A stretch of DNA of 64,000 nt from Clostridia bacterium. GTDB lineage: Bacteria; Bacillota; Clostridia; TANB77; CAG-508. Each line of letters begins with the position of its first letter. The first letter of the stretch is position 1. The notes below the pieces were generated by a model. The model was not told where the DNA came from, searched no databases, and worked only from the letters and a program-made list of their open reading frames with translations. The position numbers and the translations under genes were made by a program. The stretch covers positions 62,001 to 126,000 of the forward strand of contig JARHYK010000014.1 of the NCBI GenBank assembly GCA_029258515.1, read 5' to 3'. Shown piece by piece: positions 40,463 through 63,298 of the stretch.

Positions 40463-42469
40463 TTAAGCTTTAATTATTTTATTATTTATATTATTTAATA
40501 TATCTCTTATCTCTTTAAAGCCTTCATTTTTCTTAAATTTATTATATTCATTTTCATCTGTTACAATTTCAATAATTCTTTCAAAATTTTTTGCTTTATT
40601 TTTTATTTCATTATCTAAATAGTCTTCTAATTCCCCTTTACTTAATATGTAAAAATTATTATCATATTGTTTTTCTATAAATTTTTTTATACTGTTTTCT
40701 TCTTCTAAAGTTAAACATTCTTTCTTTTTTAAAAATCTAACTTCATACTCTGCATAACTATCTTTTAATATTTTAAAATTACGTTTATTATGTATATTTA
40801 TATAATTTGATATTGCTTTCAACAATTCTAAACAACTGTAACTCTTATTTTTCTTAATTAAATCTTTATTTTGTTTTTCCTTATCAGTATTAAAAAAAGA
40901 TTTCATCTCACTAAAATCAAATAAATTATCATAATCTCCTATAAAAAAATATTGAACTCCAATTTTTTCTAATATCTCTGAAAAATTTTTATAATTTGCT
41001 TTTCCATTTATATTGACAAATTCAATTTCTTCTTCATTATCAAATTCTGATTTATATATTTTTCTAAGTAAAATTTCATCCGTAATTCCTTCAACTAATA
41101 TTACTGCTTTTGCAAAGAATATTTTTTCATTATTAGTTTCATTTATTACTTTTAATTTTTTTCTGTTATCCTTATTATTTTCTTTTAAAAAATCATTTAT
41201 TTTTATACATTTACTTTCACCTTCTTTTTTATATATTCTAAATATATTATTTAATAAACTATAATTTATAAATGATGTTGAATGAGTTACAAACATTATT
41301 TGTACATTCTTATCTTGAGTTTCTTCTTTTAAAATTTGTACTAATTTCTTTTGCCAACTTGGATGTAAATGTAATTCAGGTTCATCTATTATTACAATTC
41401 CATCTTGAAACTTTTCCATAAATAATCCAAAAATAAAATTAATTATTTCTCTTTCTCCACTACTTATTGTATCAATTTCCATTTTTAACCCATCTTTTAT
41501 TAAATAAAATTGATATGTATTATTATTTGGTTCTATACATTCTATTTCTATATCATAATTAAATTTTTTAAAATATTGTTTCATTTTTACATATTCAGGA
41601 AGATTATAAAATTTTTGATAACCTCCTTCTTCTTGTATATATTTTCTATGTAAAAGCCCATATTTTTTTGTTGCTAGCATTATATATGTACTATTATTTC
41701 CAATGGAATAAGCTAAACTGGACATATTTGCAATAGTCTGTGTATTTATGTAACTTTGATTTTGAAAATCTGATATTCCGACAATTGTTGTTTCTTTAGC
41801 ATTATTTCTATATGCCTCAAAAAAAGTAAATGGGGTTTTAACATTATGATTAACTTCAATTAAATTAAGGATATTACTCATTAAACTAAAATATTTCATA
41901 TATTTGAAAAGTTTTAATTCAGGATTTTCTATTTTCCATATTCCATTTTGTTCAATTATTTTTATTGCTATTTCTTTCCCTATTTTTAAATCTTTTTTCT
42001 GTACATCAAAAAATTCAACTATCTCTTCTTTACTTACACTGTATGGATCATCCATAAAAGAAATATTATCAATCATATTTGTTAAAAAATTATTAATTTC
42101 ATTTTTATATCTTTTTATTTCATTTAAATTATCTATATCTATTTTTTCGAATTTAATTTTAAATTCTATATTACTCTTTTCCTTCTCTTTTTGTTTATGT
42201 TTTTTTAAGAAAAAATTTTCAGATGAATTGTATAATGGATTTTTTTCTCTAATTGAATATTTTGCATATCCAATTCTATCCATTCCAAAGCTTCTATTTA
42301 TTTCAAAATTTTTAAAACAATATTTTTTCAATGTATATATTACTATATTTATTAAGTTGGATTTTCCTGTTCCATTTGCTCCTACAAAAATATTTAAATC
42401 ATTATTAAATTTTATTGTTTCGTCAATATAACTTAACACATTTTCAATATGTATTTCTTTTATCTTCAT
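40463..42469 (-). CDS. OLD-family ATPase with TOPRIM nuclease domain
   Basis: 668 residues. The N-terminal ABC-type ATPase has Walker A GANGTGKS at 30-37, a signature-like TISSGEREIINF and Walker B IVIIDEPELHLHP. The C-terminal half has TOPRIM blocks: AVILVEGITDE with the catalytic Glu, and FIGDYDNL with DxD. OLD and Gabija GajA proteins share this layout; they cut or nick DNA under control of nucleotide levels. No UvrD-like GajB follows it directly, though a NERD-SF1 helicase lies 2.7 kb upstream in the same direction. Ribosome binding site AAGGAG. Confidence 0.85.
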   Translation of the reverse strand: MKIKEIHIENVLSYIDETIKFNNDLNIFVGANGTGKSNLINIVIYTLKKYCFKNFEINRSFGMDRIGYAKYSIREKNPLYNSSENFFLKKHKQKEKEKSNIEFKIKFEKIDIDNLNEIKRYKNEINNFLTNMIDNISFMDDPYSVSKEEIVEFFDVQKKDLKIGKEIAIKIIEQNGIWKIENPELKLFKYMKYFSLMSNILNLIEVNHNVKTPFTFFEAYRNNAKETTIVGISDFQNQSYINTQTIANMSSLAYSIGNNSTYIMLATKKYGLLHRKYIQEEGGYQKFYNLPEYVKMKQYFKKFNYDIEIECIEPNNNTYQFYLIKDGLKMEIDTISSGEREIINFIFGLFMEKFQDGIVIIDEPELHLHPSWQKKLVQILKEETQDKNVQIMFVTHSTSFINYSLLNNIFRIYKKEGESKCIKINDFLKENNKDNRKKLKVINETNNEKIFFAKAVILVEGITDEILLRKIYKSEFDNEEEIEFVNINGKANYKNFSEILEKIGVQYFFIGDYDNLFDFSEMKSFFNTDKEKQNKDLIKKNKSYSCLELLKAISNYINIHNKRNFKILKDSYAEYEVRFLKKKECLTLEEENSIKKFIEKQYDNNFYILSKGELEDYLDNEIKNKAKNFERIIEIVTDENEYNKFKKNEGFKEIRDILNNINNKIIKA

Positions 42470-42625: not shown

Positions 42626-43347
42626 TTATCCTAAAAAATATTTAACTTTTTCAATATATTGCTCTTGTGCATTTAAACACGTATCAATTAAATAACCTTT
42701 TTCTTTATTAGATTGATATTCATTTAAACCTCTATAATAAAATAATTTATCTTTATCTAATATAATAAATGGTACAATATTATATTTAAGCATTCTTTAA
42801 ATGCTATCCTTCTTCCGACTCTGCCATTACCATCTTGAAATGGATGTATCTTTTCAAATCTTGCATGAAATTCAATTATTTCTTTTATTGTTACTTTTTC
42901 TAATGAATTATACTAATCCATTAATTTTTGTATATCTCTTTCCATATTTTTAGGCAATGTTGTTTTCATATTTCGGACTTCATTAGCTAACTCCTTATAT
43001 TCTCCAACATTAAATCAATCTCTTCTACTATCAGATGTTCCTTCTTTTAATATTTTATGAAATTCTTTAATCATATCATCTGTTAAATCTTCATCTACAA
43101 TATCCAACATATAATCAACTAATTTAAAATGGTTTACAGTTTTAAATATACCATCTACCTTTATAGCAGTTTGTCCTTCTACTAATATACTATTTAATTC
43201 ATAAATATATCTAACCTGTTCTTCTGTTAATTCATTACCTTCTATTTTATTTGAATTATACGCAAAACTTACTTGTGTATAATGATATAAGTTACCTTTT
43301 AATTTCATTTCTTTTTGTTCTCTTAAATTTTCTAAAATATTATTCAT
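42626..43347 (-). pseudogene. Fic-family gene, broken copy 1
   Basis: The frame from 43347 codes for a Fic N-terminus (FAYNSNKIEGNELTEEQV) up to a TGA at 43017 where the parallel copy has a Trp codon. After that the frame reads on to a TAG (also a Trp position), then HPFQDGNGRVGRR, the full Fic motif, then a one-base deletion near 42795, and ends GYLIDTCLNAQEQYIEKVKYFLG. Thus three defects in an otherwise recognisable gene. It is a tandem relative of 44452-45168. Confidence 0.82.
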
Positions 43348-44414: not shown

Positions 44415-44451
44415 ATTTTTACCTACCCTTTTGCTTATTATTAAAATATTA

Positions 44452-45168
44452 TTAAATTTTTATATATACAAATTTTGTTCATTTAAACAAGTATCAACTA
44501 AATATCCTTTTTCTCTATTAGATTGATATTTTTTAACCCTCTATAATAAAAAACTTTATCTTTATCTAATATAATAAATGATACAATATCATATTTCAAG
44601 CATTCTTTAAACGCTATCATCTTCATACTCTACCATTGTCATCTTGAAATGGATGTATCTTTTCAAATCTTGAATGAAATTCAATTATTTCTTTTATTGT
44701 TATTTTTTATAATGAATTGTACCAATCCATTAATTTTTGCATATCTTTTCCCACATTTTTAAGCATAGTTGTTTTCATACTTCCAACTTCATTAGCAAAT
44801 TTCTTATATTCTGCTACATTAAGCCAATTTTTTCTACTATCTGATTGTTCCTTCTTTTAATATTTTATAAAATTTTTTATTATTTCTTCTATTAAATCTT
44901 CATCTGCAATATCTAACATATAATCAACTAATTTAAAATGATTTACAGTTTCAAATATATCATCTACTTTTATAACAGTTTGTCATTATACTAATATATT
45001 GTTTAGTTCATATATATTTCTAATTTGTTCTTCTGTTAGTTCATTACCTTCTATTTTATTTGAATTATACGCAAAACTTACTTGTGTATATTGATATAAG
45101 CTTCCTTTTAATTTCATTTCTTTTTGTTCTTTTAAAATTTTAAACATATTCATTTTAATATTCATCAT
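44452..45168 (-). pseudogene. Fic-family gene, broken copy 2
   Basis: Same gene type as copy 1, with near-identical N-terminus (KEMKLKGSLYQYTQVSFAYN). The frame from 45168 stops at about 44986; later codons read DSRKNWLNVA and LMDWYNSL, which keep the Trp residues lost in copy 1, but the Fic motif region has further changes (near 44640, HPFQDDNG-like). It starts 14 bases inside the end of the NERD-helicase gene. Confidence 0.75.
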
Positions 45169-46879
45169 TAATATTTATATATCTAGCATTAAATAAAGTA
45201 GTAAAAGATTTATAAGGATTTTTTCCTTTTCTTACGCCTAATCTCTCTTCTAATATGCAACATTCTTCTTTAGTTAAATTAGCTATTATATTAAGTTTAT
45301 ATTTTGCTCTAGATGCTCCTACATACAATAATTGTTCTAATTCTTCTTTTAATAAGCTTTTATCAATATCCACTAAAATTACAGCATCAGCCTCTAATCC
45401 TTTATATTTTCTACAAGTAGTAAAAGGATATTTTTTACCATTATACAAATATTTTCCTTCTGAACATTCATCCTTAAATATACTATTTTCTTCAGTTTTA
45501 CAAGTTAATATTTGTATACTTTCATATTTATTTTCTAATAATTTATCTATCAAATAATTAAGTATATGTATATTTTCATTTATTTCTGTTGCATAATACA
45601 TTTCAGCTTGTTCTCCTATTACAGCACCATCATACATTTTAGGTGTTTTATTATTACCTAAAAACCTTAAAGAAGTTCTTGCAATATTTATTGTGTTTCT
45701 ACAATTTTTATATAATGTCAATTTACAATCAGCCTCTGATATATAACTCGGAATTTGTGTAGATTGAATCATTTGATTTTTATCATAAAACATATAAAAT
45801 GTTCCATTAACGCTTTCATTATCCACTACATTTGCTTTTAATAGATCTACAATTTCTTCCTCTTCAATATTACATTTACCAAAATCTTGTCCTTCATCAA
45901 TAATTATATGCTTGTATGGAAATGTTTTATTATCATACATTTTAATTAAAGTTTCATTTAATGCTTCATAATTAGGCTTTGATAAATTAGTCATTTTACA
46001 TGCTAATCCATCTATAGTCATAAAATCAACATTTTCGTAATAATAGTTTTCCTTTAAATATTCTTTTAAATAAAAATTATAGCAAAGGAATAATACTTTT
46101 TCATTTTTAAGCGAATGTCTTCTCGCTTTTTCTAAAGCCATTACAGTTTTTCCAGTTCCAGCCATCCCATTTATTATAGCATTATCTTGTTCTTCTAAAT
46201 AATTTAATAAAGCCACTTGTTCATTTAACATTTTTTTAAAAACTTGCTTTTTATGGTTTAACTTTATTTCAGCAATTGAAATCATATTAAAACTTGGTGC
46301 TAAAACTCTATCTAATAATATTTTAGTCTCATTTCTATCAAGTTTTGTTTCTATTAAATTAGGCAATTGAATAGAAAAAATTTTAGATATATCTTCTTCA
46401 ATATTATCTATTGATTCACTAGTTAATATTATATTTTTGTCTGCTTCAGAAGGCAAATTTATTTCCATTAGCCATTCTTTTGAAATAGAAGGAAACCAAA
46501 CCGCATGTAGTAATTTACATTTTTTCAAAATATATTCTAATCCATTACTCTTTATATAATTACTTAATTTCCATTTATTATTACTAGCTTGATGAAATGG
46601 GCCATCATGGCTCATTACAATATCACTTCCGTATTTCCATTTTTCTTCTTCATATTTAACATTTCCTGCTTTGGCTTCAATACACAAAATTCCTTTTTTA
46701 GGATTAAATATTACAAAATCAGTTTCACTTTCATAAATTCTATCTTTAACAACATTAACTATTTTAAATGAATGAAAAACATAATATTCATCAGATAATT
46801 GTGATAATGCATCAAACATTAAATCTTCTTTACTATTTTTAGAAAACTCTTTGGGTTTATCTGGATACATTATAGCCAT
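45155..46879 (-). CDS. NERD-domain SF1 helicase
   Basis: 574 residues. Residues about 10-110 are a NERD nuclease domain: the SETDFVIFNPKKGILCIEAK block shows the D...ExK catalytic pattern. The SF1 helicase follows: INGMAGTGKTVMALEK (Walker A, about 235-250), IIIDEGQDF (Walker B, about 330), QILTCKTEENS, and the C-terminal YVGASRAKYKLNI motif VI. It starts 3 bases after the DUF1998 helicase gene with AGAGGTG as ribosome binding site, so the two are cotranscribed and translated together. A nuclease-helicase for DNA processing in a defence complex. Confidence 0.85.
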   Translation of the reverse strand: MAIMYPDKPKEFSKNSKEDLMFDALSQLSDEYYVFHSFKIVNVVKDRIYESETDFVIFNPKKGILCIEAKAGNVKYEEEKWKYGSDIVMSHDGPFHQASNNKWKLSNYIKSNGLEYILKKCKLLHAVWFPSISKEWLMEINLPSEADKNIILTSESIDNIEEDISKIFSIQLPNLIETKLDRNETKILLDRVLAPSFNMISIAEIKLNHKKQVFKKMLNEQVALLNYLEEQDNAIINGMAGTGKTVMALEKARRHSLKNEKVLFLCYNFYLKEYLKENYYYENVDFMTIDGLACKMTNLSKPNYEALNETLIKMYDNKTFPYKHIIIDEGQDFGKCNIEEEEIVDLLKANVVDNESVNGTFYMFYDKNQMIQSTQIPSYISEADCKLTLYKNCRNTINIARTSLRFLGNNKTPKMYDGAVIGEQAEMYYATEINENIHILNYLIDKLLENKYESIQILTCKTEENSIFKDECSEGKYLYNGKKYPFTTCRKYKGLEADAVILVDIDKSLLKEELEQLLYVGASRAKYKLNIIANLTKEECCILEERLGVRKGKNPYKSFTTLFNARYININDEY

Positions 46880-46882
46880 ATT

Positions 46883-49800
46883 TTACACCTCTATCAATTT
46901 CAAAAATTCATCTATATCAAATTCATCTTTTGTACAAAAGCATTTCCAACCAGTTTTTTTTGCTTTTTTATAATCCTCATAATTACTTTCCAAGAAAAGC
47001 ATTACTTTATTATTTTTCCATAATTCATTTGCCATAAATTCTTCTTTTGTCTCTTTATTTATTAACACCTCATTATAAATAGGTTTATTAATCTCAATAT
47101 TTTTAGATTTTCTTATAATTTTATCTACTATCATTGCTTCTTCGTCATTACAATCTTCTAATAAATTTGTCCAAATTTCATTAACAGAATTTGCATCTTG
47201 GTAACTTCCAATATTTTTTAAAATCAAATCAATTCCTTTCATGCAATCTGTTTTCTCCTCTATACACTTTGAATTATCTAGCTCTATTTCATCCATTTCT
47301 TTAATTATTTCATTGTTTATAGAAAATTTTTCATAAAATTCGATTGCATATATTCTTTTTAACATTTCATGCTGCCTTTGATTATAATAATTACATAAGC
47401 AACTATAACACGCTGTATTTTTTTCTTCTCCACCACATGTACAACTATTAACAACATATTTACCATATTTTAGCATCTTTATAAATACTTCCGTATCTTC
47501 TAATTTTCTAACATATCCAGCACCACCAGGAGTATTATCAAATAATATACATCCGAAATTTCCCATTGGTGTACTATTATCTCTATACCATTGTATACAA
47601 CCAGATAATTCTTTTCTATCTATGTTCAATGCTCTACTAAGTCCTTCTAATAAAGAATATAAAATAGTCCATGCTCTATCAGGTTGTCTCATTTCTATAT
47701 CTCTAAACTTTAAAAAAATAACATCAGTTTGAAATTCATGTCCTAATGTATATTTATATAAAATACCATTGCATTCATGACCACTTGGTGTTTTATGTTT
47801 ATATTGTTCCGTATTTCCTGAAAACTTATCACTAATCATTCCGTACCCACAATTTTTACATATATAAAAATCAGATTTATTTAATACTGCAAGCGAATCC
47901 ATATTACTATTTCCTATTGATATTCTTTGACATCCAAGGTTATAATTTTTATAACTAATATTATTGTCATTACCAATATAAGCTATTTGCCCTCTATATG
48001 TTTTTTCTGGTTTATTTAGTCCTACATCTTTAGGTCCTTCTGTATCTAATACAAATCCAAATTTTGGTATTATATATTTATCTAATCTAGAATTAACTTT
48101 ATTTCCACACTGTCTACATTCTTTAATTGGTTCAGTTATTGATTGTATTGTTAATGTTGCACATTCTGGGCATTCATAGTAATAATACTCTGGCCATTCG
48201 TAACCAGCAATTTTTTTAATATATCTACTCTTGTATAATTTTCCATCTGCCACCACTTCAGATTCAGGTGCATATTCTGATATTGCTGAAATCAAATCTC
48301 TACTTAAATTAATATTTCCAGTATTACTATTTTTGTATGAAGGTTCTTGTAATTCAACTGAATCAACAGGGAAACCATATTTAGGAATTATATTATTTTT
48401 TGATAAAAATTCTATTATTCTTTGATCCCTCAAAGTATCAATAGACCTTTTTATCCAATCTGTTGGCTTATTATCTTTAAATCTTCTTTCTTTTTCATTA
48501 TTTAATTCAATTATCATTTTATTATATTTATTAATAGCTATATCTGCTATGCCATTCATTTTATCTGGAGCAAATAATTTTTCAACCCATTTAAATGAAT
48601 TAATTCCAAATTTTGAATGTAATTCATTTGGCACAACACTAATTAAGTATTTTCTTAAATCTTCTGGATGACTCTCTAAATATTTATTTAATTTTTCAAA
48701 TCCATTATTATCAATGAATTTTCCAATATTATCCATATACATATTTATATTATTTTTCCAAAAAAATGAAAAAGCTGACGCTAAAATATGTCTTAAAACA
48801 ATTTTCTCATTTTTAATATTTAATACTGGTGGTACAATAGACCCCTCTATCATATCAACTGGATTTTTAAAATAATTTAAATCATGTGAACTATTTGGAC
48901 AAAATGTGACAGCATATGCTGCTGATTTTAAACTACGTCCTGCCCTACCTGCTCTCTGTACATAATTAGCTGGAGAAGGTGGCATGTTTCTCATTAATAC
49001 AGTTTCCAGTGTTCCAACATCAACTCCCATTTCAAATGTAGTAGAGCAACTCAAAACATTTATATCTTTCTCTTTGAATTTTTTTTGATATTCATATGCT
49101 TTATCACTTGACAATTGTGCAGTATGTTCTTTAACTACCATTGGAGAAATATTTAATTTTCTATATAAATTATAATAATGGTTTTCTTTCAATTTATCTT
49201 TATATTCATATTCTACTAATTTTCCATTACATCTAGGATTATTGCATATTTCTTTTACATTATAAGCAGATATATTTTTACACTCTTTACAAATATATAA
49301 TTTATCTACTTTTTTAACTTTAATATTTTCAATATTTAATTGATATGGTTTTTTATTATTTCTAAATTCAACTTGTTGAATATAATTATTTTTTATAAAA
49401 TTATTCCATATAGATAATAATAATTTTCTGGCTTTCATTTCATCATTATTTAAAATCTTTTTTAAATATTTCAATCTTTTATTAGTTTTACCATCTTCTG
49501 GAATCCAAGATTCAATAGTATTTATTTTTTCTGTTTTACATTCATATCCTTTTTGAAAACCAGAGAATGTAAATCGTCCCACTTCTTCATCAGTAAAAAC
49601 CATTCCTGTTTTTATTGCTGCATCTTTCATAAAAGAAATTGTTAATTCTTTACAGATATCATTAACTTCTTCTTTAGATAATTCTAATTGAGGAATCGGT
49701 GGCATATCAAAATCTATTTCAAATTTCAAAAAACCATTTCTTAACAATGAATTTTTAGCTTTATAATTTGATATTTCAAGCAATATTTGTATCCAAGCTT

Positions 49801-51962
49801 CTTTTTGTAAAGTATTTTCGCTTGCATTTGGAATTACATTATATTTTTTAAATTTATCTGCTAAAATTCTTGCAAATTGATCAAGACACATACCATTATC
49901 AAACTCTTTTTCATTTTCAGTTAAAATTTCATACATAATTCTTTTAACCAATGTATTTCTATATGTTCTTTCTAGATATGATGCAAAAAAAGCAGCAGTT
50001 TGTCTTCCATCTGAAAAAGCCAAAAATTGTTTAGATATTTTTTTGCTTTCATCTTTTTCAATCTTATAATTCCCAAAAAATTCATCTTCAACGACTTCAA
50101 TTTTCTTATGCATTTCAACACTTGGTAATTCATTATATAGTGCTGTAGAAATTACTGCTGTAGCAGCTTCACTTCCTAAATAATATGGTCTTAATATAGT
50201 AGTTTTACTATTTGTACTATGACAGCATGGACATTTATGTAGAACTTTTGCTTTTTCTTTAACCTTAATTATTTTATTTATATATTTACTTCCATGACCA
50301 CATTGCAATCCATTAACCGAAGACGCCTTTTTTATCTCTCCACATTTAGCACATATTTGATAAGTATTCTCATCCTCATTATCCTCATCATCTGGATCAT
50401 AATCACCGCTAATCAAATAAACCTCTGGACTATATTCATCATTAAATTTAGATTTTTGTACTAAATGACCATCTTCAACTTGACCAGTAATAAACAAGGC
50501 ATTGCAATTACTGCAATATGAAACCTCATATACTTTATATCCAATATCACTCTCATCATATTTATTTTCTTTATATGTTTCCATTTTATTTATAAATAGC
50601 TTTTCTAAAGGTTTTAATGTAACAAAGATACCCTCTATTCCTCTAAAGAACATGTGATATTTAGCCTCAAACAATTTTTCATCATTCTTCACAGCGTTAG
50701 AAGCTACTGCAATAAAATCTGTAAAATCATCAACAGAAATATTTAATTCGTTGGCAACCATGTTTAAACTCTTTACTTGTTTATATAAAGCTTTTCTTAC
50801 TTTATAATAAAACTTATCATGTAAGACCAAATTATAAATCATTTCTTCATTTGTTTTTCCAATTAAATTATTAGATTCTAACTTTTCTTTAATTTCATTA
50901 TCTTTATTATCTCTAATTAGCTCTGCTAAATTATTATATAATTCAAAAGAAACTTCATTTAAATTTTCTGTAGTTGTATTAGGATTAGTATATGCTCTTA
51001 TAATAGAAGAATCATTAAATCTTGAATCACACAATGATTCTGCAAAATTAATAATCTCATTATTTGATTTTTCATTACCCAAAGTTGCACTAGTTAAAAT
51101 GTATTGTAAATCTTCTCTTTTTAACATAGCTTTAACTCTTTTTAGTAGTGTAGCAACTTCTATTCCATTTGCTCCACTATACGAATGTGCTTCATCCAAA
51201 ACTATATATTTCCATTTATCTGAATATTCAGATCCTAGAATAATATTATCACCTGGTCTTAATAAGATATATTCTAACATAGCATAATTCGTAATTAATA
51301 TATTAGGGGGGGTTATTCTCATTTGTTCCCTACTTATTATTTCATTTTTTCTCCAAGGATATTTATCATCTTCTATTTCAGAATATATTCTTTCTGCATC
51401 TTTTTGCTTTTCTTTTGTTTCTCCTGTGAATCTTCCAAAAGTAATAGCTTCATCCAAATCCATATCATATAATATTTCTCTTATTCTTCTAATTTGATCA
51501 TTAACTAAAGCATTCATTGGATATATTATTAAAGTTCTTACACCAGGCCCCAAAGTTCCTTTTTCTTTTTCTTCTAATAATTCATTTATTACTGGAATTA
51601 AAAAAGATTCTGTTTTTCCTGATCCTGTTCCGAGTTGTAACAATTAAGTTTTGTCCATTTTTGGCTTTTCTTATAGCTTCTTCTTGATGTTTATATAAAT
51701 TTCTATCATTAGGATGAAACTTTTTTAATTTCATCATTTCTTTAGATAAAATTCCTTCTTGAGCTAATTTCTCGATTTTTTCTCCTTTTTTATACGGATC
51801 CGACATACTTATATACGGTCCATCTGCTATTGCTTTTTTCTTTTCCAATTCTTTTTTTAATTGTTCATTATATTTTTCATTATTTGTATTAAATCTAGTT
51901 AATAAATATCTTCTATAAAATTCAGTTATTTTTCTTGAACTTTCTGATGGTCTAAAAATCAT
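46883..51962 (-). pseudogene. DEAD/DEAH helicase with DUF1998, broken by a one-base insertion in Walker A
   Basis: From the ATG at 51962 the frame gives 110 normal residues ending LYKHQEEAIRKAKNGQ (Q motif) and NLIVTT, then continues out of frame to a stop at 51582. In the other frame GTGSGKTESFLIP follows at once and runs 1,580 residues. One extra C at about 51631 explains it. The whole protein would have about 1,690 residues: Walker A TGTGSGKT, DEAHSYSG, motif VI YVQRAGRAGRS, a zinc-Cys region (CPCCHS, CGEIKKA), and a C-terminal DUF1998 with NTPGGAGY and CTCGG...CYSCLCNYY. DruE of Druantia, DrmA/DrmB of DISARM and MrfA share these parts. If the insertion is real the helicase is dead unless read by frameshifting. 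Confidence 0.8.
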
Positions 51963-51965
51963 ATT

Positions 51966-54881
51966 TTATCTCCTCCTATGTTTTATTTCTGCTTCATATT
52001 GAGTAATTCCTTTTTCTAAACTTATTACATTATTTGACGTTAATACTTCTAATATCTTATTATCATTTTCTACGATCTTATTACTTTTTTTATTGTAATA
52101 TAATTCATACCATTCTTCATCTAATTTTGAATAATTTTCTAAAGAAAATATAATTTTATTTTCTTTTAACTTCTTAATGTCCATAATTCTAACATTTCCA
52201 ATATATCTTTTACTTTTTTCTGATAAATCATTTAAATTATTATATTTTGCATAATATTCATACTCATATAATTTTCCAATAAAATTTTTTTCATCATCTA
52301 TTGATTCAACTTCTATTTTATACTTAAAATTTTTATTAATTTCTAGTAAAGTATCGTTAAACTTAATTTCTTCAATCAATAATTTATTTCCTATTATATT
52401 AATATAATTATAGTTATTTTTATCTGATACATAACTTATTATTCCTTGTTTTCTTCTCGGTAGTGTTATCACATTTCTATTTAATCCAAATTTATCATTT
52501 TCTTCTATTGTTGGAATTATATTATAATACACTTCTCGTTTAATTTCTGGTAAATAATTTATTCCTGGTTTTAATTCTTCATGAACTACTATATGCTTAT
52601 GTGAAATGTATTCATCAATTGAATAAAAAATTTTAACTCCTTCCTCTTCTTTAAATTCAACATTAAAGCATGGTATATTATTATAATATTCAAATTCAAA
52701 ATATGGACTAATTCTTATACTTTTTTTAACTTTGAATATTTCTAACCATCTTGCTCTATTATCTGTATATTTAATATACAAACAATTCCACTGATTATCA
52801 CTACTTTTAATATCAGAAATTAATGATGTAATATTTATTCTATAAAAATTTTCTTTTATTTCTTCTCCCCATACTATTTTATTAAAATCTATATTGCTAT
52901 AAATACCTAATTTTTGAGCTCCTGGAAATTTTATATATAATAATTGTTCCAGTTTGCTATACCAAATTTCATCAAATTTTCCATATTTAAGATTTTTCTC
53001 AGAAAATCCATATAACATCATTTTTATTGGAACTTCTATATAAAATGTTTTTTCAGATAAATTTAATTTAGCATTAATTAATTTATAATTACTATCAAGA
53101 TCTATTTCATAATAGTAGTTATTTCTATAATCATTTATATATACAAGTTTGCATTCATTATCAATTATTTTTAAATCTAAACCTTCTGTTTTCATAGTTA
53201 ATTTTGCTATTTCTTCATCAATATATCTGGGTTTATCAAACAAAAAATATACATGACATAATAACAAATAATTTGCTATCTTTTTGTTGCTTTCACCTGC
53301 TAAATTTAATTCAACATTATAGTATCCTGTCTTTAATTCAAGTATTCTATTTAAATCTGCCGAAACTATTATTTGAGAATTATTTATTGGTGATTCATAT
53401 ATTGCTATACTACTATTTTTCTCAACAGAATAATTTTTATTATTTATCTGAATTGTTGCACCTTCAATTTTACTTTTATCCAACTCAAAAGATATTATTG
53501 GATGTGATCTAGCAGCTATTATTTTATTTTTCTTTTCATCATACGCATTAAAAAAGTTTATTTTATAATCATATATTGGTTCTTTTGAGAATTCACCAAT
53601 ATTTGTTAACGGTTTACTATCGACATAACAAATAGAATTTTCATCAATATCTAACTTATATTGAATCCATTCATCAAACTTTTCTTTATTAATTAGAATC
53701 TTTTCTTTATCAGAAAAATCGACATTTATATCTTTTTTTACTAATAGATAATTTGTTCCGTTTTCCAATCTACTTGTCCTAATATTTTGACTATTAAAAA
53801 TAACATATCTACTTTCTGGTATAATAGTTATATTATTATCTAATGATGCTATCTCTACTTTTATCTCATCAAATGGATATCCTATTGGATATCTCAATTC
53901 TTCTGAAATATAAGTTCCCATATTTGTGCTAACTTCTAATTCTTTTTGCCTTGAAGTTCCATTAATTGTTATTTTTGCAAAAACCTTGCCATCACATTCT
54001 GTCTTTCTATATCTTCTTTTGGGAATAACTAAAGTAAATGGTGTCCTTATATATTTACTTGTATTAATTGTTAAATATGGTTTATAACTATGAAACTTTC
54101 GCTCACTTTTATTTCTACTTGTGATTTTTTTCTGATTTTCTTCTTTTTCAATCCATTTAATATAAATTTGTGAAAATCTATTATCTAAATCTTCAGGTAA
54201 TATACCATCATAAAATTTCTCATCTATAATTTTAAGTGAAGGATAAAATAGCTGATATAATATATCTCCTGAAGATTGTGCTATTACTTCTCTAGTAGAT
54301 TTAAGTAATTTATATGACTTTTTAGTTTGATTATTATCACTTGAATAAATTGTATCTATATTTTGTTTTATCGTTTTTTTTATATAATCCGATAAATCTT
54401 GTAAGGTTTCTTCAACTCCTTGTGTTATATCCCTAAACAAATTTTTTTCATAATAATCATTTAAGAAATCGTAGTACCCTTCCATATAATTATTAGTAAC
54501 AAATGCATGAGCCTTTATATTTTCTACGTATCTCATCGTACCATTAGGATTTTTTTCAAGTTCAAATAATTTATATTTTCTAATAGTTTCTATAAAAATT
54601 TTCCCTAATATTCCTTGCCTCTGTGGAGAAATATCATCAATATTTAATTTATCTTTAAGTATCTCCCAATACTTTCCATCCTGATAATCATTTATTGCTA
54701 CCTGTACTAATGCAGTTGATAAAACTAAATCTGGTCCTATTACAAGATATTTTTCATTCAAATTTATAATACTCTTAGCATAATCTATAATTTCTTTTAT
54801 TTCTCTATCAGATAATGGAATTTGTCCAATCAAATAACATTCATTTTCTTTAATTTTATTTAGCAACTCGTTATTATTCAT
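51966..54881 (-). CDS. Large protein (971 residues) of unknown function, partner of the DUF1998 helicase
   Basis: The stop at 51966 is 3 bases before the helicase start, so the two form one translational unit. The N-terminal 200 residues are helical (segments YWEILKDKLNIDDISPQRQG, FVTNNYMEGYYDFLNDYY). From about 270 on the protein is almost all beta strands, Asn/Tyr/Ile-rich, with basic RRYRK and a final KHRRR; no signal peptide, no Walker motif, no nuclease motif that I can find. I do not recognise it. DruH of type III Druantia is a large protein without known domains paired with a DUF1998 helicase, so that comparison should be made. AGGGGGC precedes the ATG. Confidence 0.7.
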   Translation of the reverse strand: MNNNELLNKIKENECYLIGQIPLSDREIKEIIDYAKSIINLNEKYLVIGPDLVLSTALVQVAINDYQDGKYWEILKDKLNIDDISPQRQGILGKIFIETIRKYKLFELEKNPNGTMRYVENIKAHAFVTNNYMEGYYDFLNDYYEKNLFRDITQGVEETLQDLSDYIKKTIKQNIDTIYSSDNNQTKKSYKLLKSTREVIAQSSGDILYQLFYPSLKIIDEKFYDGILPEDLDNRFSQIYIKWIEKEENQKKITSRNKSERKFHSYKPYLTINTSKYIRTPFTLVIPKRRYRKTECDGKVFAKITINGTSRQKELEVSTNMGTYISEELRYPIGYPFDEIKVEIASLDNNITIIPESRYVIFNSQNIRTSRLENGTNYLLVKKDINVDFSDKEKILINKEKFDEWIQYKLDIDENSICYVDSKPLTNIGEFSKEPIYDYKINFFNAYDEKKNKIIAARSHPIISFELDKSKIEGATIQINNKNYSVEKNSSIAIYESPINNSQIIVSADLNRILELKTGYYNVELNLAGESNKKIANYLLLCHVYFLFDKPRYIDEEIAKLTMKTEGLDLKIIDNECKLVYINDYRNNYYYEIDLDSNYKLINAKLNLSEKTFYIEVPIKMMLYGFSEKNLKYGKFDEIWYSKLEQLLYIKFPGAQKLGIYSNIDFNKIVWGEEIKENFYRINITSLISDIKSSDNQWNCLYIKYTDNRARWLEIFKVKKSIRISPYFEFEYYNNIPCFNVEFKEEEGVKIFYSIDEYISHKHIVVHEELKPGINYLPEIKREVYYNIIPTIEENDKFGLNRNVITLPRRKQGIISYVSDKNNYNYINIIGNKLLIEEIKFNDTLLEINKNFKYKIEVESIDDEKNFIGKLYEYEYYAKYNNLNDLSEKSKRYIGNVRIMDIKKLKENKIIFSLENYSKLDEEWYELYYNKKSNKIVENDNKILEVLTSNNVISLEKGITQYEAEIKHRRR

Positions 54882-55061: not shown

Positions 55062-57188
55062 TTATTCGCCTCTTTCAGCATTTTCCAATGATTGCTTTAT
55101 TAATCCAATTATATAATCAATATCTGCATCATTTCTAATTTTAATTTGAACATGTCCTGTTCCCCAACTTCCTACATTTGAAATATCTTCACAAATATTT
55201 CTTTCATCCAAGATGTTATCATAAGGAATATCTAATAATAAATTAATTGACCATTTATATATTATAATCTCTGCAAAATTGCTATATTCATATTTATAAG
55301 CAACATAATATTTAGTATACACTCTTTCAATATTATCATTTAATGCTAGAATTCTTTTATCTAATTCTTCATATTTTTCTTTTATTTCTTTTCTCATTTC
55401 TGGATAATGATCCATATTATCATATTTTATCTTTTCAGCTTTTATATTGTTTTTATATTTTTTAAGGATTTCTTTTGGTAATTCACATTTTTTCCAAATC
55501 TTAACTGCATCTTCTGCAAGTCTTTTACTTCTTGAAGTAATCTCATTAATATCCCATTTTGAACACATTGCAATATCATCACTTAATCTATAATTACTAT
55601 ATTTAATTCCTCCAGGTACACTCATTTTATCTTCAAAAGAATCATCCTGCATTTTAGAATTATATGGCCTATTTGAAAAAGTTAAATTCCCTACTGTATG
55701 TACATATTTTTTCTGTAATTCTTGCCAATTTTCTCCTAATATGTCTCTCCAACATTGTTTTAGATTTTTACCTTCTGGCAAAACATGCTCTATAGTTATA
55801 TCTTTATTTTCAAAACTCATTTTATCTTTATCATGAGCATAGTTTTCTAGTTTGATTAAAGTATAATTTCTTAATCTTCCATTATATACATCTTTTTCAA
55901 TAAATGATTTTTTAAATTCTTCATCCTCTGGAAATTCTTTATAATCCTCTAATAAGATTAATGCTGCAAATACACTTTCTTTATAATTTTCCTTTTCAAT
56001 ATTATCTCCCAATAAAGCAAATGTCTTATTTAATGAGTTTGTAGGAATACTACATACGTATCTTCTATATACATATGAATTTACTGCTTTTACTATTTCT
56101 ATAAAGTCTTCTTTAGAAAGATTTATTGTTTTATCTTCTGTTGCTTCTTCATAATCATTATACACTTGAATTAAGAATGGATTGGCAACTTCTACTCTTT
56201 GCATTTTTAATTCTTTCCATAATTCATTTAATTCAACATCTTGGTCATTACATCTATATATTCTTGCATAATATTTAGCATATTTTCTTAAATCTTCTAA
56301 TGCTTCTTCTTTACTCTTTCCACTATCTTCATAATATGATTTATATTCTTCATATCCTGAATCAAGTCTTATTGTTGTTCTTCTTTATTTAATCATTAAA
56401 TAATCTCTAATGAAATAATCAAATTTTTCTTTATATGCTTCAACACCAAAATCTAATTCTATTGGTCTCCAATATTTTTTATAAACTTCTTCTTGTTCTT
56501 TAAAATTTAAATCTAATAATAAATAATTTCTTAATAAATCACCTTGTGTAAGTTTTAATCCAGTTGAATTCATACTTTCAAATATTAATTGTGGATTATC
56601 AGAATCAGAACTTAAACCAATATACACTAAATCTAATTTCTGTAATCCTATATATGCACATTTTAATATTTCTTCATCGCCTTCTAGTAATGACATAAAT
56701 AAATTAAAAGCGTCCATTACAGGTTTTGATGCATTTTTCAATTCATTTTCAGTTCCATTAACTAAATCTAAATATGTTTCTTTATCTTGGTTAATAGGCA
56801 ATAATTTATATCTTTCTTCATTTTTACCATCTTCATTTATTAAATAATTTTTTCTAATAGCAACAGCTACATTTTCTTGTCCAATTTTCTCATATGTTCT
56901 TGCTATTGCAATCATTAATAAAGACAATGTTGTAATTCTTTGTTGCCCATCAATAATTATTTCTTGTTTAATTTGGCCTGGTAAATCAATTTCTTCTGTT
57001 TTAAAGCAAACAGCAGATCCTATAAAATGTCTATCAGTATTTTTTCTTTTACTTATTTTTATAATATCTTCCCACAATACTTGACATTGCTTTTCTCCCC
57101 AACTATATGTTCTTTGATATATTGGCACTATGTATTGATTAAATTGACTTTCCATTAATTTCAAAAAATTAGTTTCTTTTGCTCTCAT
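55062..57188 (-). pseudogene. GmrSD-like DUF262/DUF1524 protein, split by an in-frame stop
   Basis: The first 267 residues (56385-57188) are a DUF262 domain: VPIYQRTYSW, then IIDGQQRITTLSLLM near residue 75-95 as the ParB/Srx-like nucleotide-binding block. A single TAA at about 56385 stops it; the same frame continues (TTIRLDSGYEEYKSYYED) to the second part with the HNH-type DUF1524 near IEHVLPE and VGNLTFSNRPYNSK. The two open frames are in phase (difference 984 bases). Repaired, it would be 708 residues, normal for type IV restriction enzymes of the GmrSD group that attack modified DNA. It follows hsdR by 85 bases, as in many type I loci. Confidence 0.85.
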
Positions 57189-57273: not shown

Positions 57274-60200
57274 CTAATTATATTTTTCAAAATTTTCAGC
57301 TTGTTCCATTACTTTGCTAAATACTTCTGGACTATATTCTGGTGGATACCCATTCTTTATTAAACAAATCTTTATATCAAATTTAAGTTGATTTCTTACA
57401 TTTTGATTATTAATCCAATCTGCATATGAAGATTTTTCATCTATAATCTTTTTAATTTTCTTTGCTAAATTTTTACATTTATTATTAAGAATTATTCCAC
57501 CAACAAATTTATCTTCTCCATATTCAAAATTAAATTTATCTCTTAAATTTAAAAGGATATCATAAAATGCTTTTTCCTCAAAAGTCAAATCAATTTTGCG
57601 GAAACTTTTTCTATCAGCATTCATATCTTTTAAAATTCTCAATACTTGTGCTGTTGCATTTTTTATAATTTCTTCAGTTGTTTCTTCGTGTGTTACATTA
57701 GCTTCATCTTCTGTTAAATTTTTTCTACGTTCATGATATAGTTTTATTGTTTCATCTAACATTTCTTGAAACTTTTTACCAGCTAATTGATTTACTTTTT
57801 GATATTCAGCTATTTGCTTTTTTAACATTTTAACAAGCAATTCTAGTTTTGAAGCTGGCATTTTAACGTCAATAAGATTATTATAATATTCTGGACTAAA
57901 AATATCTTCTTCTCCAAAATCTAAAATACTTTCAACTTTATTATATTTTAACGCTTCTTCAACCATTTTTGATACGTTTTTATTCATTGTGTCCACATCA
58001 ACATGACTCGTTCCTGTCATTTTTCTTACAAATCCTGCTATTGCCATAAAACATTGTGCTAAAGCAGATTCTTCTTCATTTAAAACTCCTGATGGCTGTG
58101 ATATATCATAAGCTGCTCTCATCCTTCTTGTTATTTTCAAAAAATATGTTTTAAAACTAACTTTATTCGTTTTTTTACCATTATCAGATATAAGATTCAA
58201 CTCTTCACTAGAAGCAAAAACATATTCTGCCGCTTTTGAAAGAGCAATATATCTATCTGCTGGATTAGCATCTGGATTTAAAAAAGGACTTAAATCAAAT
58301 CCAATAAATAAACTTTTTAAAATTCCTAAATGTTCTCTAAAAATATTTGTTGCTTGATTTACATCATCATCTGAAGGAGCTATTGAACTATCTCCACCAT
58401 ATAACGACATAGCTTTTCTCATATTATCTCTTATTCCTATATAATCAACTATTAGCCCATATTCTTTACCTGGATATTTTCTGTTTACTCTACTTATTGT
58501 TTGAATTAATAAATGCTTTTGCAATGGTTTATCATTATACATATATGTTAATGTTGGAACATCAAATCCTGTAATCCACATATCAACAACAATAACAATT
58601 CTAAAATTAGATTTATCTTCCTTAAATGCAGAATCTAATTTTTCTGATCTCTTATCATTAGCAGTGCCTCCTAAATAATTATACATTTCTGTAGGATCAT
58701 TACTTCCAACACTTGATACCATAGCAATAAATGGCATAGGTTTTAATTTTTTTAATTCTTCTTCAGATATTTCAGTACCAGAAGGAGTTTTCTTTTCCTC
58801 AAACCATTCTGGATAATGTTCTTTAAACTTTTGCAATAAAGAATAAGCTATTGTTCTATTTGAACAAACTATCATTGCTTTTTGAATTCTATCTGGATCT
58901 TTTTCACAAGATGATACATAATGATTATGAATATCTACTGCAAGTCTATCTAATCTAGAAGGTTCACCTAATATTACATCCATTGAACTCATAGCTCTTT
59001 TACTTTTTTCAATTTCTTCAATTGACGCTCCTTCATCTGCACATATTTTATAATAATTTTCTATTTCTTCAGCTTTTCTTTCATCTAATAATACCTTCGC
59101 TATTCTTGGATGATATTTTATAGGAACAGTTAAACCATCTGCAACCGATTGATCCATAGTATATCTATCTATTTCATCACCAAACGTTTGATATGTTTCT
59201 GCTATAGGTGTCCCTGTAAATCCCACAAATGTTGCATTTGGAAAAGCTTCTCTTAATACTTTAGCATATGGTTTTGAAATCATTGCTTTCATATTTTCAT
59301 CAGCATCTTTACTAAATTGAATTTTTTTAGAATGATCTAATTGTGTTCTATGTGCTTCATCAGAAAAACAAATAATATTTGATCTGTCATTAATTAAACC
59401 AATTTTATCATCTTTCCTATCGCAAAATTTTTGAATTGTACAAATATAAAATCCACCACTTTGTCTTAATCCTAATTCTTGTCTTAAATCATTTCTACTA
59501 CTTGTAACGTTAACTTCCCCTAAATTTAGAAATTCTTTACTCTTAGTAAATAATTTAGAACTTTGCTCTTGTAATTCATTTCTATCTACTATCATTACAA
59601 TAGTTGTCGAACCCATTTCTGGAATATCTGTGCATCTTAATGATAATTGTCGAGCAAGAAAAGCCATAGTATATGTTTTACCACATCCAGTTGCTCCAAA
59701 ATATGTACCACCTTTTCCAGTTTTTTCTTTTACTGATTTAATAATACTTTCTTTTAATAATCTTGAAGCAAAAAATTGAGGATATCTACATACTATTTCA
59801 ATTTCATCCTTATCATATTCAGAATCTTGAAAATAAATATAATCCCTAAATATTTCCAAAAACCTTTTAGGCGAAAAAACACCTTTTATCATATTAATTG
59901 TTTCTTCAAAAGGTAGTGTTGACAATTTATCATCTGAATTTACTCTTCTCCATGCATAAAAATGTTCATATGGAGCTTTAACTGTACCTAAACGAGTTTT
60001 AACTCCATCAGAAATACACGCTAATGGGCAATAATGTAATAAATCAGGAATATCTCTCCAATATCTAATATTTATTTGTTCCCAAGCATCATGTATTGTA
60101 GCATTATAATCTGCAGGATTCTTTAATTCCATAATGCAAACAGGTAATCCATTTATATATAATAATACATCCGGTCTTCTATTTTCTTTTTTTCCATTAT

Positions 60201-60600
60201 TAGTATAATCTATCAAAAGTTGATTAACTACCTTATAAATATTATTCTCTAATATTTCATAATCAATTAAGTCTAATATTACTACTTCACCTGAATCTAA
60301 TTTAAATTGATATCCATCAACCATCCATTTATAAACTTTATGTAATGTTGCAAAATCTGTTTCAGCACCAACTAATTTAATATTATCAATAATCCTTTTT
60401 CTTTCTTCTTCATTTAAATATGGATACTTATTACCTAAATATTCATTTAAATCCTGTATATTTAAAACATCTCTTTTAGTTTCTCTAGGAAACTTTTTAC
60501 CATATAAATAAGTCCAGCCCTCGTTTTCTAAAAAAGAAATTAAAGCATTTTCATAATCCGATTCACAATAATGACCATTATATTCTTTAAACTCATCCAT
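57274..60600 (-). CDS. hsdR: Type I restriction enzyme, R subunit (HsdR)
   Basis: 1,108 residues. N-terminal nuclease domain with RRPDVLLYINGLPVCIMELK (D...ELK, residues about 140-162), then SF2 motor: GATGCGKTYTMAFLAR (Walker A), ICFSDEAHRTQ (DEAH), VGFTGTPI, ITGFDVPTL and QTISRVNRKYPGK (motif VI), and a long helical C-terminal domain for contact with the methylase. It translocates DNA and cuts it when the HsdS target is unmethylated. Intact. It begins three bases after hsdS. Confidence 0.95.
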   Translation of the reverse strand: MDEFKEYNGHYCESDYENALISFLENEGWTYLYGKKFPRETKRDVLNIQDLNEYLGNKYPYLNEEERKRIIDNIKLVGAETDFATLHKVYKWMVDGYQFKLDSGEVVILDLIDYEILENNIYKVVNQLLIDYTNNGKKENRRPDVLLYINGLPVCIMELKNPADYNATIHDAWEQINIRYWRDIPDLLHYCPLACISDGVKTRLGTVKAPYEHFYAWRRVNSDDKLSTLPFEETINMIKGVFSPKRFLEIFRDYIYFQDSEYDKDEIEIVCRYPQFFASRLLKESIIKSVKEKTGKGGTYFGATGCGKTYTMAFLARQLSLRCTDIPEMGSTTIVMIVDRNELQEQSSKLFTKSKEFLNLGEVNVTSSRNDLRQELGLRQSGGFYICTIQKFCDRKDDKIGLINDRSNIICFSDEAHRTQLDHSKKIQFSKDADENMKAMISKPYAKVLREAFPNATFVGFTGTPIAETYQTFGDEIDRYTMDQSVADGLTVPIKYHPRIAKVLLDERKAEEIENYYKICADEGASIEEIEKSKRAMSSMDVILGEPSRLDRLAVDIHNHYVSSCEKDPDRIQKAMIVCSNRTIAYSLLQKFKEHYPEWFEEKKTPSGTEISEEELKKLKPMPFIAMVSSVGSNDPTEMYNYLGGTANDKRSEKLDSAFKEDKSNFRIVIVVDMWITGFDVPTLTYMYNDKPLQKHLLIQTISRVNRKYPGKEYGLIVDYIGIRDNMRKAMSLYGGDSSIAPSDDDVNQATNIFREHLGILKSLFIGFDLSPFLNPDANPADRYIALSKAAEYVFASSEELNLISDNGKKTNKVSFKTYFLKITRRMRAAYDISQPSGVLNEEESALAQCFMAIAGFVRKMTGTSHVDVDTMNKNVSKMVEEALKYNKVESILDFGEEDIFSPEYYNNLIDVKMPASKLELLVKMLKKQIAEYQKVNQLAGKKFQEMLDETIKLYHERRKNLTEDEANVTHEETTEEIIKNATAQVLRILKDMNADRKSFRKIDLTFEEKAFYDILLNLRDKFNFEYGEDKFVGGIILNNKCKNLAKKIKKIIDEKSSYADWINNQNVRNQLKFDIKICLIKNGYPPEYSPEVFSKVMEQAENFEKYN

Positions 60601-60603
60601 ATA

Positions 60604-61707
60604 TTACGCCTCCTTTTGAGCTTCTTCAATAGAACCTTTAATTAAAATAGGACATATATTCTTAATTTGCTCTTTTAACTTTTCATTTATATTTTTTCTT
60701 TCCTTATAAACATTATAAATATTAACTATATTTTTTTGAATATTTATATCAACAATAGGTATCTTGACTTTAATTAAATCATCCCAAGTAAACGTTTCTC
60801 TAGCACTTCCCCACGAATGAAATCTCGCATATCTATCAAATTCCGCCCTATTTAAAAACATAATTAAATATTCAGGAAGTAAAAATTTCTCATTTGTATA
60901 AAATACTTCATTTACAGAAGTAACAACTATATCCTCGTTCGTATTATTAAAAGCATTACAAAATACTTTTTCATTATGAGTGGTTTGTACAAAACTGATT
61001 TGACGTGGTTTTACTAATTTATAATTTGATAATTCATTACGATTAACCTTTGATGTTGGTTCTCTAAATTCTTTACTAGTACTAACACCCATAACATTTT
61101 TTGTTCCATTTGGGCCATTTCTAATATCCTGCCTAATTATATAATCTCCAATTTCTGCAGAATCATTTTTTCTTCTTAAATCTTCAATATATGCATCGCA
61201 TAATAGTTTCATATCCTCAAGACCTCTATCATAACTCTTTTGATTTTCACACATAGCATTATATATATCTACATATTTTTGTTGAATTTCAATACTTGGG
61301 AGCTCTATTTCAAATTCAGACAAATTACTAATTCTAAAATAATTACGTGCAGATCCCATAGCTTCAAACCAGCATTTACGTGCAAATTCATCTCTTTTTA
61401 TGAATAAATTAAGATATTCCGTAAGTAATATATCCGTACGTGAAACGTAAAATACTTCATACAAAGAAGAACAAATAGCTTTATCCCAAAATATATTAAG
61501 CGCAATTGAATTTAATTCCATTCTAGCTGGATTAAATACAAAATCATTTTTATAATATACATTATATAAAGAAAGATCAGCTCCTTCTTGTTTAGGTAAT
61601 ATAAAACCTTCACGAGATACTCCTCTTATAGGTAAATCTTCAACTCCATCATATTTTTCTCTTCTTTGTTCTATTAATTCTCCTAATTTATATTTAATCA
61701 ATTTCAT
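60604..61707 (-). CDS. hsdS: Type I specificity subunit (HsdS)
   Basis: The ATG at 61707 follows AGGGGG; the open frame to 61734 lies inside hsdM. 367 residues with two target recognition domains, each ended by a conserved helix: first half SARNYFRISNLSEFEIELP, second half SARETFTWDDLIKVKIP, the usual internal symmetry. It determines which DNA sequence is methylated and cut. No inverted second hsdS or recombinase is nearby, so there is no sign of phase variation. Confidence 0.92.
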   Translation of the reverse strand: MKLIKYKLGELIEQRREKYDGVEDLPIRGVSREGFILPKQEGADLSLYNVYYKNDFVFNPARMELNSIALNIFWDKAICSSLYEVFYVSRTDILLTEYLNLFIKRDEFARKCWFEAMGSARNYFRISNLSEFEIELPSIEIQQKYVDIYNAMCENQKSYDRGLEDMKLLCDAYIEDLRRKNDSAEIGDYIIRQDIRNGPNGTKNVMGVSTSKEFREPTSKVNRNELSNYKLVKPRQISFVQTTHNEKVFCNAFNNTNEDIVVTSVNEVFYTNEKFLLPEYLIMFLNRAEFDRYARFHSWGSARETFTWDDLIKVKIPIVDINIQKNIVNIYNVYKERKNINEKLKEQIKNICPILIKGSIEEAQKEA

Positions 61708-63298
61708 AATTAATCCCCCTAAAAGCATCTTCAAGCATTTTTTGAGATTTTTTTTCTATTTTCATAATTTCTTTCATTTCATTTTGAATACGAGCCATCT
61801 CTTTAGAAAAATCAATATCAAGATCATGATCAATAAATTCAATATATTTACTTGGTATTAAAGTCCATCCTTTTTCTTTTATTTCATCTATATCTACACT
61901 TCTATAAAGTTCTGGAAATTCGTATTTTTCTCCATCAGTTCCTTCAGATTGCCAAATATGGTAAAAATTTGATACTTTTTTGATTTGTTCTTCATCCAAT
62001 TGAACTTTCTTTTTATTTTCACCTTTTACAGAATTGTCTGTCCAAGTTCTCAAATCCATAAATAATATTTCATTTTCTCTATTTCGTAAAGTTCTATTAT
62101 GATATATACCACCTTTTTTATTTTGATTAAGAATCCAAAGTGTAACACTTATATCTGTTGTAATAAATAATTCTCTTGGAAGTACAATAATTGCTTCTAT
62201 CTTATCCTTTTGAATTAACTTTTTACGAATTTCTAAAGTATCACTATCATTTAAAGCACCATTTGCAAGTAAAAATCCTGCAACACCATCTGTTTTTTTC
62301 AAATGCGAAAGCATATGTAATATCCATGCATAATTAGCATTACTTTCTGGAGGAATAGCATACTCTGCCCATCTTGAATCATCAGCGAGATTAGAATTAT
62401 ACCAGCCTTTCAAATTAAAAGGTGGATTAGCCATTATATAATCAAAATCTATACCTTTATGTAGATCTTTCGTAAAAGTAGATTCATAATCATTTCCTAA
62501 ATTATGACTTATTCCTCTTAAAGCTAAATTCATCTTAGCTAATCTATACGTAGCAGCCTCTTTTTCTTGGCCATAAACATTAATTTTACTAATATCTCCT
62601 TGCTTAGATTTTACTAGGTCAGCACATTGTATAAACATACCACCTGACCCACAACATGGATCATATAAAGTTCCATCATATGGTTCTATTAAAGATGCTA
62701 TTAATTTAACTACATCATGTGGTGTATAAAATTCTCCTTCTTCTTTTGTTGCATTTACAGCAAATTCTTTCAAAAAATATTCATATACACGACCTATAAG
62801 ATCTTTTTCTTCCCCAAATGTCTTATGAGATATTTTATTTACTTCATCTACTATTTTTTTAATATCATTAGCAGCTAAATTTCTTTGAGTAAATGTACCT
62901 TCAACAAAACATCCTTTCAATTGTTCGCTACTATCATTAATAACTTTCAATGCATTGTCCAGAGCAACATTTAATTGTGTTGCTGGAGTATTTATAATCT
63001 CACTCCATCTAGCCTCTTTAGGTAAATAATATGTTCCATCAGTAAAAGTGGCATCTTCAAAAAAAGCCTTTCTTATATTTTCATCATCTGGATTTAAATT
63101 TTGCTCAATCAATTTCTTCCTTAAATTCTCTATCCCATCTTCATATTTTTCTCCAATAAATCTAAGAAAAACTAAAGTTAACATCATATCTCTTTTTTCA
63201 AAAAAAGAACCAGAATTTCGAGCAGCTCTTAAATAATCTCTACAATTAAATAGAATTTTATCTAAATTTAATCTTTCTTCTTTTACTTTTTTTGCCAT
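61694..63298 (-). CDS. hsdM: Type I methyltransferase subunit (HsdM)
   Basis: 534 residues. N-terminal HsdM domain, then the N6-adenine methylase: YDPCCGSGGMFIQ (SAM-binding motif I, about 213-225) and YIMANPPFNLKGW (motif IV NPPF, about 285). C-terminal coiled part contacts HsdS. First gene of the operon; its 3' end overlaps hsdS by 14 bases. Confidence 0.95.
   Translation of the reverse strand: MAKKVKEERLNLDKILFNCRDYLRAARNSGSFFEKRDMMLTLVFLRFIGEKYEDGIENLRKKLIEQNLNPDDENIRKAFFEDATFTDGTYYLPKEARWSEIINTPATQLNVALDNALKVINDSSEQLKGCFVEGTFTQRNLAANDIKKIVDEVNKISHKTFGEEKDLIGRVYEYFLKEFAVNATKEEGEFYTPHDVVKLIASLIEPYDGTLYDPCCGSGGMFIQCADLVKSKQGDISKINVYGQEKEAATYRLAKMNLALRGISHNLGNDYESTFTKDLHKGIDFDYIMANPPFNLKGWYNSNLADDSRWAEYAIPPESNANYAWILHMLSHLKKTDGVAGFLLANGALNDSDTLEIRKKLIQKDKIEAIIVLPRELFITTDISVTLWILNQNKKGGIYHNRTLRNRENEILFMDLRTWTDNSVKGENKKKVQLDEEQIKKVSNFYHIWQSEGTDGEKYEFPELYRSVDIDEIKEKGWTLIPSKYIEFIDHDLDIDFSKEMARIQNEMKEIMKIEKKSQKMLEDAFRGINYEID

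Follow-up and report, generated by a model that had tools for sequence, protein, structure and literature searches.

A three-gene operon set within a bacterial defence island raises the question of whether it encodes an undescribed kind of defence system or a divergent form of a known one. The operon lies in a window of 64,000 nucleotides, the whole stretch of DNA that was analysed, from a gut bacterium of the Clostridia, CAG-508 lineage (GCA_029258515.1, contig JARHYK010000014.1, positions 62,001-126,000 of the forward strand), and the coordinates given below are those of this window. All three genes are carried on the minus strand, in the order of a gene for a 971-residue protein (51966-54881), a gene for a large SF2 helicase, and a gene for a NERD nuclease fused to an SF1 (UvrD-like) helicase of 574 residues (45155-46879). 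A preliminary description of the sequence had reported 3-base spacings between these genes, and the helicase gene is indeed separated by 3 nt from the 971-residue protein gene before its start and by 3 nt from the NERD-SF1 gene after its stop. The extent that it assigned to the module, 46883-54881, holds the first two genes and leaves the NERD gene just outside. The operon is limited to these three genes, which are flanked by a DUF262 gene and by decayed copies of a Fic-like gene.

The preliminary description proposed that the module was either of a new type or distantly Druantia-like. Because the helicase matches DruE and the 971-residue protein appears to be a distant DruH, the core of the locus is that of Druantia III rather than of a new kind of system, and only the second half of that proposal survives. 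We therefore consider it highly probable that the locus encodes a divergent form of Druantia III.

The main part of the helicase gene is an open reading frame of 1,586 codons (46883-51643) whose product has the DEAD and Helicase_C domains of a YprA-family SF2 helicase, together with an MZB/DUF1998 zinc-binding domain at residues 1329-1416 (47396-47659; Pfam PF09369, 1.7e-9). These domains agree with the large DUF1998 helicase described earlier, although that account overlooked an interruption of the reading frame that is considered below. The protein matches the PADLOC model DruE3 with an E-value of 8.1e-163, versus 1.8e-16 for DrmA, and no other family gives a stronger match. It also matches PDB entry 9tu7 (6.9e-78); the entry calls its protein a DEAD/DEAH box helicase, and from the matching papers we take this to be DruE of E. 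coli Druantia III. By sequence comparison, then, the helicase is DruE.

The identity of the 971-residue protein is less readily established. As the preliminary description held for this beta-rich protein, sequence searches do not name it: Pfam, NCBIfam and PADLOC assign it to no family, the PADLOC models for DruH fail to match it at E-values up to 0.01 or its nearer relatives at E-values up to 0.1, and blastp finds no match between it and E. coli DruH. A PADLOC analysis of the operon accordingly names DruE (DruE3) and RTasNERD-Hel, and its DruH models are silent on the remaining gene. An iterated HMM search starting from this protein gathered about 65 open reading frames from Firmicutes, actinobacteria, cyanobacteria and alphaproteobacteria, nearly all of them immediately ahead of a gene for a DruE-like helicase. 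The two genes follow one another in this order, and either abut or overlap, in about 60 diverse loci. Among 298 genomes of the genus to which the mycobacterial locus L064 belongs, 15 full-length relatives are present at 49% identity or above.

Profile-profile comparison and structural modeling nevertheless provide an assignment where the earlier account had none. Specifically, a profile of 32 relatives aligns by hhalign with a profile of eight E. coli-type DruH proteins at an E-value of 1.1e-6 (probability 91, 592 colinear columns), whereas reversed and block-shuffled controls yield E-values of 0.46-0.89 and unrelated profiles yield 0.14-0.85. The Firmicutes rows alone match proteins in the DruH position of actinobacteria (probability 97.7, E = 1.7e-12) but give no match to E. 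coli DruH (E = 0.18), and thus the link to DruH depends on the wider family and its intermediate sequences. The match is confined to the N-terminal and Ig-like regions, so that no counterpart is detected for the C-terminal part of E. coli DruH. An AlphaFold2 model (mean pLDDT 76) predicts a helical N-terminal region (residues 1-264; 54090-54881) followed, from about residue 269, by tandem Ig-like beta-sandwiches (residues 269-720; 52722-54077). The best Foldseek matches are tandem Ig/FN3 proteins, a likeness that is generically Ig-like only, and the low TM-scores are due to the arrangement of the domains. In E. coli DruH, which has been proposed to be a phage sensor, both ends are helical and the Ig-like domains lie at residues 257-748 (PMC13192584). 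On the basis of the controlled profile comparison and the modeled architecture, we identify the 971-residue protein as a distant DruH.

Druantia III has been divided by Bell et al. (PMC12458937) into III-A, the E. coli type in which DruE carries a PLD nuclease, and III-B, a distinct branch whose DruE proteins mostly have no nuclease. On our helicase tree, the window DruE groups with DruE from Firmicutes and actinobacteria, apart from E. coli-type DruE, and the mycobacterial loci L061 and L064 fall in the family of the window pair. Protection against phage has been reported for a DruH-DruE pair from Mycolicibacterium smegmatis (PMC13316683); published anti-phage activity comes from the E. coli and M. 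smegmatis pairs. Membership of the window system in III-B, whose named reference is GIH50614.1, is likely, judging from the tree grouping and the published description.

As in III-A (E. coli; 9tud, 9tu7), a DruE homologue is preceded directly by a DruH-like gene, the DruH protein combines a helical N-terminus with Ig-like domains, and the setting is a defence island. Unlike III-A, the window DruH resembles its counterpart at the profile level only and not in the C-terminal region, and DruE is about 1,700 residues long rather than the 2,107 of the E. coli protein. The window DruE also lacks the C-terminal PLD nuclease region and has instead an extension of 146 residues with a different fold, compared with 340 residues in E. 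coli DruE, and the operon includes an extra NERD-SF1 gene. The III-B and M. smegmatis pairs share with the window pair a DruH-like protein of about 900-1,450 residues, a DruE of about 1,550-1,700 residues, genes that overlap or abut, and actinobacterial members that are homologous to the window pair. Most of these pairs, however, have neither a NERD gene nor a C-terminal extension (the M. smegmatis pair was compared by description).

The third gene was correctly recognized at the outset as encoding a NERD nuclease joined to a UvrD-type SF1 helicase, and it matches the PADLOC family RTasNERD-Hel at 2.8e-62. The Pfam NERD model matches several homologues of the protein but not the window protein itself; across 13 relatives, the nuclease residues E18, D54, E68 and K70 do not vary, and neither does the Walker A motif. 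Full-length homologues are known as RTasNERD-Hel of reverse-transcriptase systems and from the C3a187 NERD+UvrD family, but there the place of DruE is taken by a reverse transcriptase or by another helicase. The preliminary description was also right that described Druantia has no NERD helicase. In the main texts of the papers searched, we found NERD together with Druantia nowhere beyond the case of TALON and a domain list.

Recurrence of the trio, named beforehand as a test of the proposal, is observed. The same gene order is present in nine further loci, giving ten in which a NERD-SF1 gene directly follows DruE (the window, L010, L035, L036, L045, L054, L105, L111, L128 and L129). The NERD gene of L105 is cut by the end of its contig, and this locus is counted among the ten but not among the nine complete loci, in which the gap between druE and the NERD gene is 0-14 nt and the order is fixed. 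Among 292 genomes of the host family, DruE is present in 5 and the NERD helicase in 7, and 4 genomes have the two side by side (Fisher p = 5.8e-7). The NERD-adjacent state of DruE corresponds to six separate changes on the helicase tree. Most III-B-like loci have no NERD gene, which indicates that this component is optional. Moreover, NERD helicases of the same family occur without DruE in L132 and L133, and in L131 (2112-7437), which also lacks DruE, one overlaps the end of a gene for a 1,212-residue SF2 helicase similar to DpdF/C3a193. The presence of similar NERD helicases beside other helicases or away from DruE marks the gene as a movable partner.

What distinguishes the DruE proteins that have this partner is an addition at the C-terminus. 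Every NERD-adjacent DruE has about 114-185 extra residues after the conserved core, located in the window at 46886-47347. An extension of 60 residues or more is present in 10 of 10 NERD-adjacent loci and in 7 of 49 without NERD (p = 3e-7, a value that ignores kinship). With a cut-off of 100 residues, extension and NERD gene change together in all six independent pairs on the tree (sign test p = 0.03). The NERD nuclease-SF1 helicase is thus linked to a single architectural variant of DruE, a relationship that went unnoticed in the preliminary description, as did the optional nature of the third gene. Seven loci have the extension but no NERD gene. Among these, L049 (9668-18260) encodes a DruE with a 273-residue extension that is followed after 13 nt by a gene for an 861-residue UvrD helicase in place of the NERD gene, perhaps an analogous SF1 partner, and in L070 an extended DruE is followed by an IS110 transposase. 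A profile of the extension also matches several actinobacterial DruE proteins that have no NERD gene.

The structural model of the extension, with pLDDT above 90, has the alpha-beta-beta-beta-alpha-beta core of restriction nucleases, and no catalytic residues are recognisable in it. Foldseek returns no significant match, the best being the Vsr-like PvuRts1I at E = 0.2, and the proposed nuclease-like fold is based on topology.

Locus L045 is informative about this relationship. Its DruE core is 46-47% identical to those of L128 and L129 versus 35% to that of the window, whereas its extension is 35% identical to that of the window versus 16-21% to those of L128 and L129. Similarly, its NERD protein is 57% identical to the window protein versus 35% to those of L128 and L129. 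A core nearest to one group, and an extension and NERD gene nearest to another, argue that the latter two have been exchanged together between DruE backbones.

We regard a divergent, III-B-like Druantia III system with an accessory third component as the best explanation of the operon, and as a probable one. The DruH-like protein would act as the infection sensor, its Ig-like domains probably binding a phage protein, while DruE, as a YprA-family helicase, would engage phage replication intermediates that contain single-stranded DNA. The inactive nuclease-like extension of DruE might then dock the NERD nuclease-helicase, which would cut or unwind phage DNA. Such a step could replace the C-terminal PLD nuclease that is present in E. 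coli-type DruE and absent from the window DruE. Docking through the extension is a step about which we are slightly more doubtful than convinced. Because the extension is encoded beside the NERD gene, a single crossover could transfer both and so link them without any physical docking, which is the main alternative. More tentative still is the proposal of a three-component Druantia subtype in which the extension acts as a plug for an exchangeable NERD protein, and in which tail and NERD gene move as a cassette between type III backbones. If they do move in this way, the effector nuclease would be modular.

Alternatively, the operon might consist of two independent units lying side by side, namely a two-gene Druantia III-B system and a NERD-SF1 helicase acting on its own, whose gene simply has a preference for inserting behind druE. 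The occurrence of NERD helicases beside the DpdF/C3a193-type helicase or without DruE, the knowledge of the NERD-Hel family in PADLOC from reverse-transcriptase systems, and the absence of NERD from most DruE loci all agree with this arrangement. It is unlikely, however, given the short gaps and fixed order in the nine complete loci, the covariation of NERD with the DruE extension, and their joint exchange in L045. A categorically new system, in which a protein unrelated to DruH has recruited a DruE-like helicase, would explain why family libraries and blastp fail on the 971-residue protein; the profile-profile match with its clean controls, and the architecture and gene position shared with DruH, make it very improbable. 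Least credible of all is a variant of TALON or DISARM. TALON does pair an ARMADA-like YprA helicase with a NERD nuclease (PMC12458937), but it requires TPR-CSD and TBP genes, and its helicase, of the ARMADA-like branch, has an RNase H-like C-terminus; neither these genes nor such a C-terminus was found among the neighbours scanned. DISARM, which the preliminary description had already set aside with good reason, is disfavoured by the far stronger match to DruE than to DrmA (8e-163 versus 1.8e-16) and because neither a PLD gene nor DrmB adjoins the locus. The methylase near the trio is part of a complete type I restriction system. ARMADA type II (PMC12458937) was also considered and rejected. 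Its YprA-family helicase has a Vsr-like C-terminal domain and its operon includes a UvrD/GajB-like SF1 helicase. That operon, however, further encodes a BrxHII-like helicase and a PglX-like methylase, and the domain attached to the SF1 helicase is RelE-like where the window protein has NERD.

A separate question is whether the divergent Druantia III system still functions in this genome. The N-terminal piece of druE is severed by a frame shift and occupies an open reading frame of 126 codons (51582-51962), of which residues 5-110 match PADLOC DruE models with E-values of about 1e-11. This frame overlaps the 1,586-codon frame in a different phase, and the shift falls at the 5′ edge of, or within, the Walker A codons (GTGSGKTE; 51608-51631). 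L010, a locus from a different genus of the host family, has the whole trio, with 63, 78 and 78% identity to the window genes, and its druE is one intact frame of 1,694 codons, which implies that the window gene is either mutated or mis-assembled. A programmed frame shift was rejected because there is no conserved slip site and the relatives are uninterrupted. With druE broken in its ATP-binding motif, this copy of the system is probably non-functional, provided that the break does not stem from faulty assembly. It is somewhat probable that the operon is the dead remnant of a Druantia-like system in a decaying island, as an in-frame TAA interrupts the neighbouring DUF262/DUF1524 gene and the nearby duplicated Fic gene copies are decayed. 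The DruH-like and NERD frames, on the other hand, are open and full length, and the interruption of druE is seen in a draft assembly of 38 contigs. Barring errors in this draft, the island looks partly dead.

Our understanding of Druantia III is only now emerging, and current detection models, which fail to recognise DruH partners other than those of the E. coli type, leave many such systems undercounted. The DruH-DruE core is already known as Druantia III, and the new part of this system is the NERD third gene with the DruE domain that covaries with it. NERD as a partner fits the published remark that many DruE proteins of the III-B branch are without an intrinsic nuclease (PMC12458937). That a C-terminal domain of DruE and the gene for a nuclease-helicase are exchanged together offers a concrete, testable idea of effector swapping in helicase-based defence.

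Other genes of the island, likewise on the minus strand unless noted, are also of interest. The DUF262/DUF1524 gene (55062-57188) is GmrSD-like (PADLOC Orf5/HEC-06), has a PDC-S18-like C-terminus, and is open for about 700 codons apart from its one TAA. Further upstream of the trio is the complete type I restriction-modification system (HsdR, HsdS and HsdM; 57274-63298). On the other side, the two decayed Fic-like copies (42632-43347 and 44442-45149) are 82-92% alike, are spaced by 1,809 nt, and flank an open reading frame of 263 codons of no known family. Beyond these are an OLD-family AAA-TOPRIM nuclease (40463-42469; PADLOC Old, 1e-36) and a 1,204-residue protein (35119-38733) that has no Pfam family above threshold and whose C-terminal third matches PADLOC Upx (2.6e-21). 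A Fic-HTH gene (38992-40050, strand not given; PDC-S72, 9e-125) adjoins the gene for the latter protein.

Relatives of the trio were also sought on mobile elements. A tblastn search found none in plasmids, and scans of viral contigs with the alignment of the 971-residue family and with E. coli DruH gave no match. Separately, weak matches in L008/L012 and L009/L013, which lie beside no helicase gene, were discounted as chance similarity. The single weak tblastn match in phages proved to be a druH-like/druE pair. In Ruminococcus phage NatCom_28274 (L014, 11776-19199), a DruH-like/DruE pair without NERD lies between endolysin and replication genes, and its DruE is nearly identical to that of L087, a locus from a metagenome-assembled genome. 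Two other viral contigs encode DruE-like helicases of more distant branches, one with a NERD helicase directly downstream (L020, 6001-13781) and the other with a NERD helicase directly upstream (L029, 672-7532).
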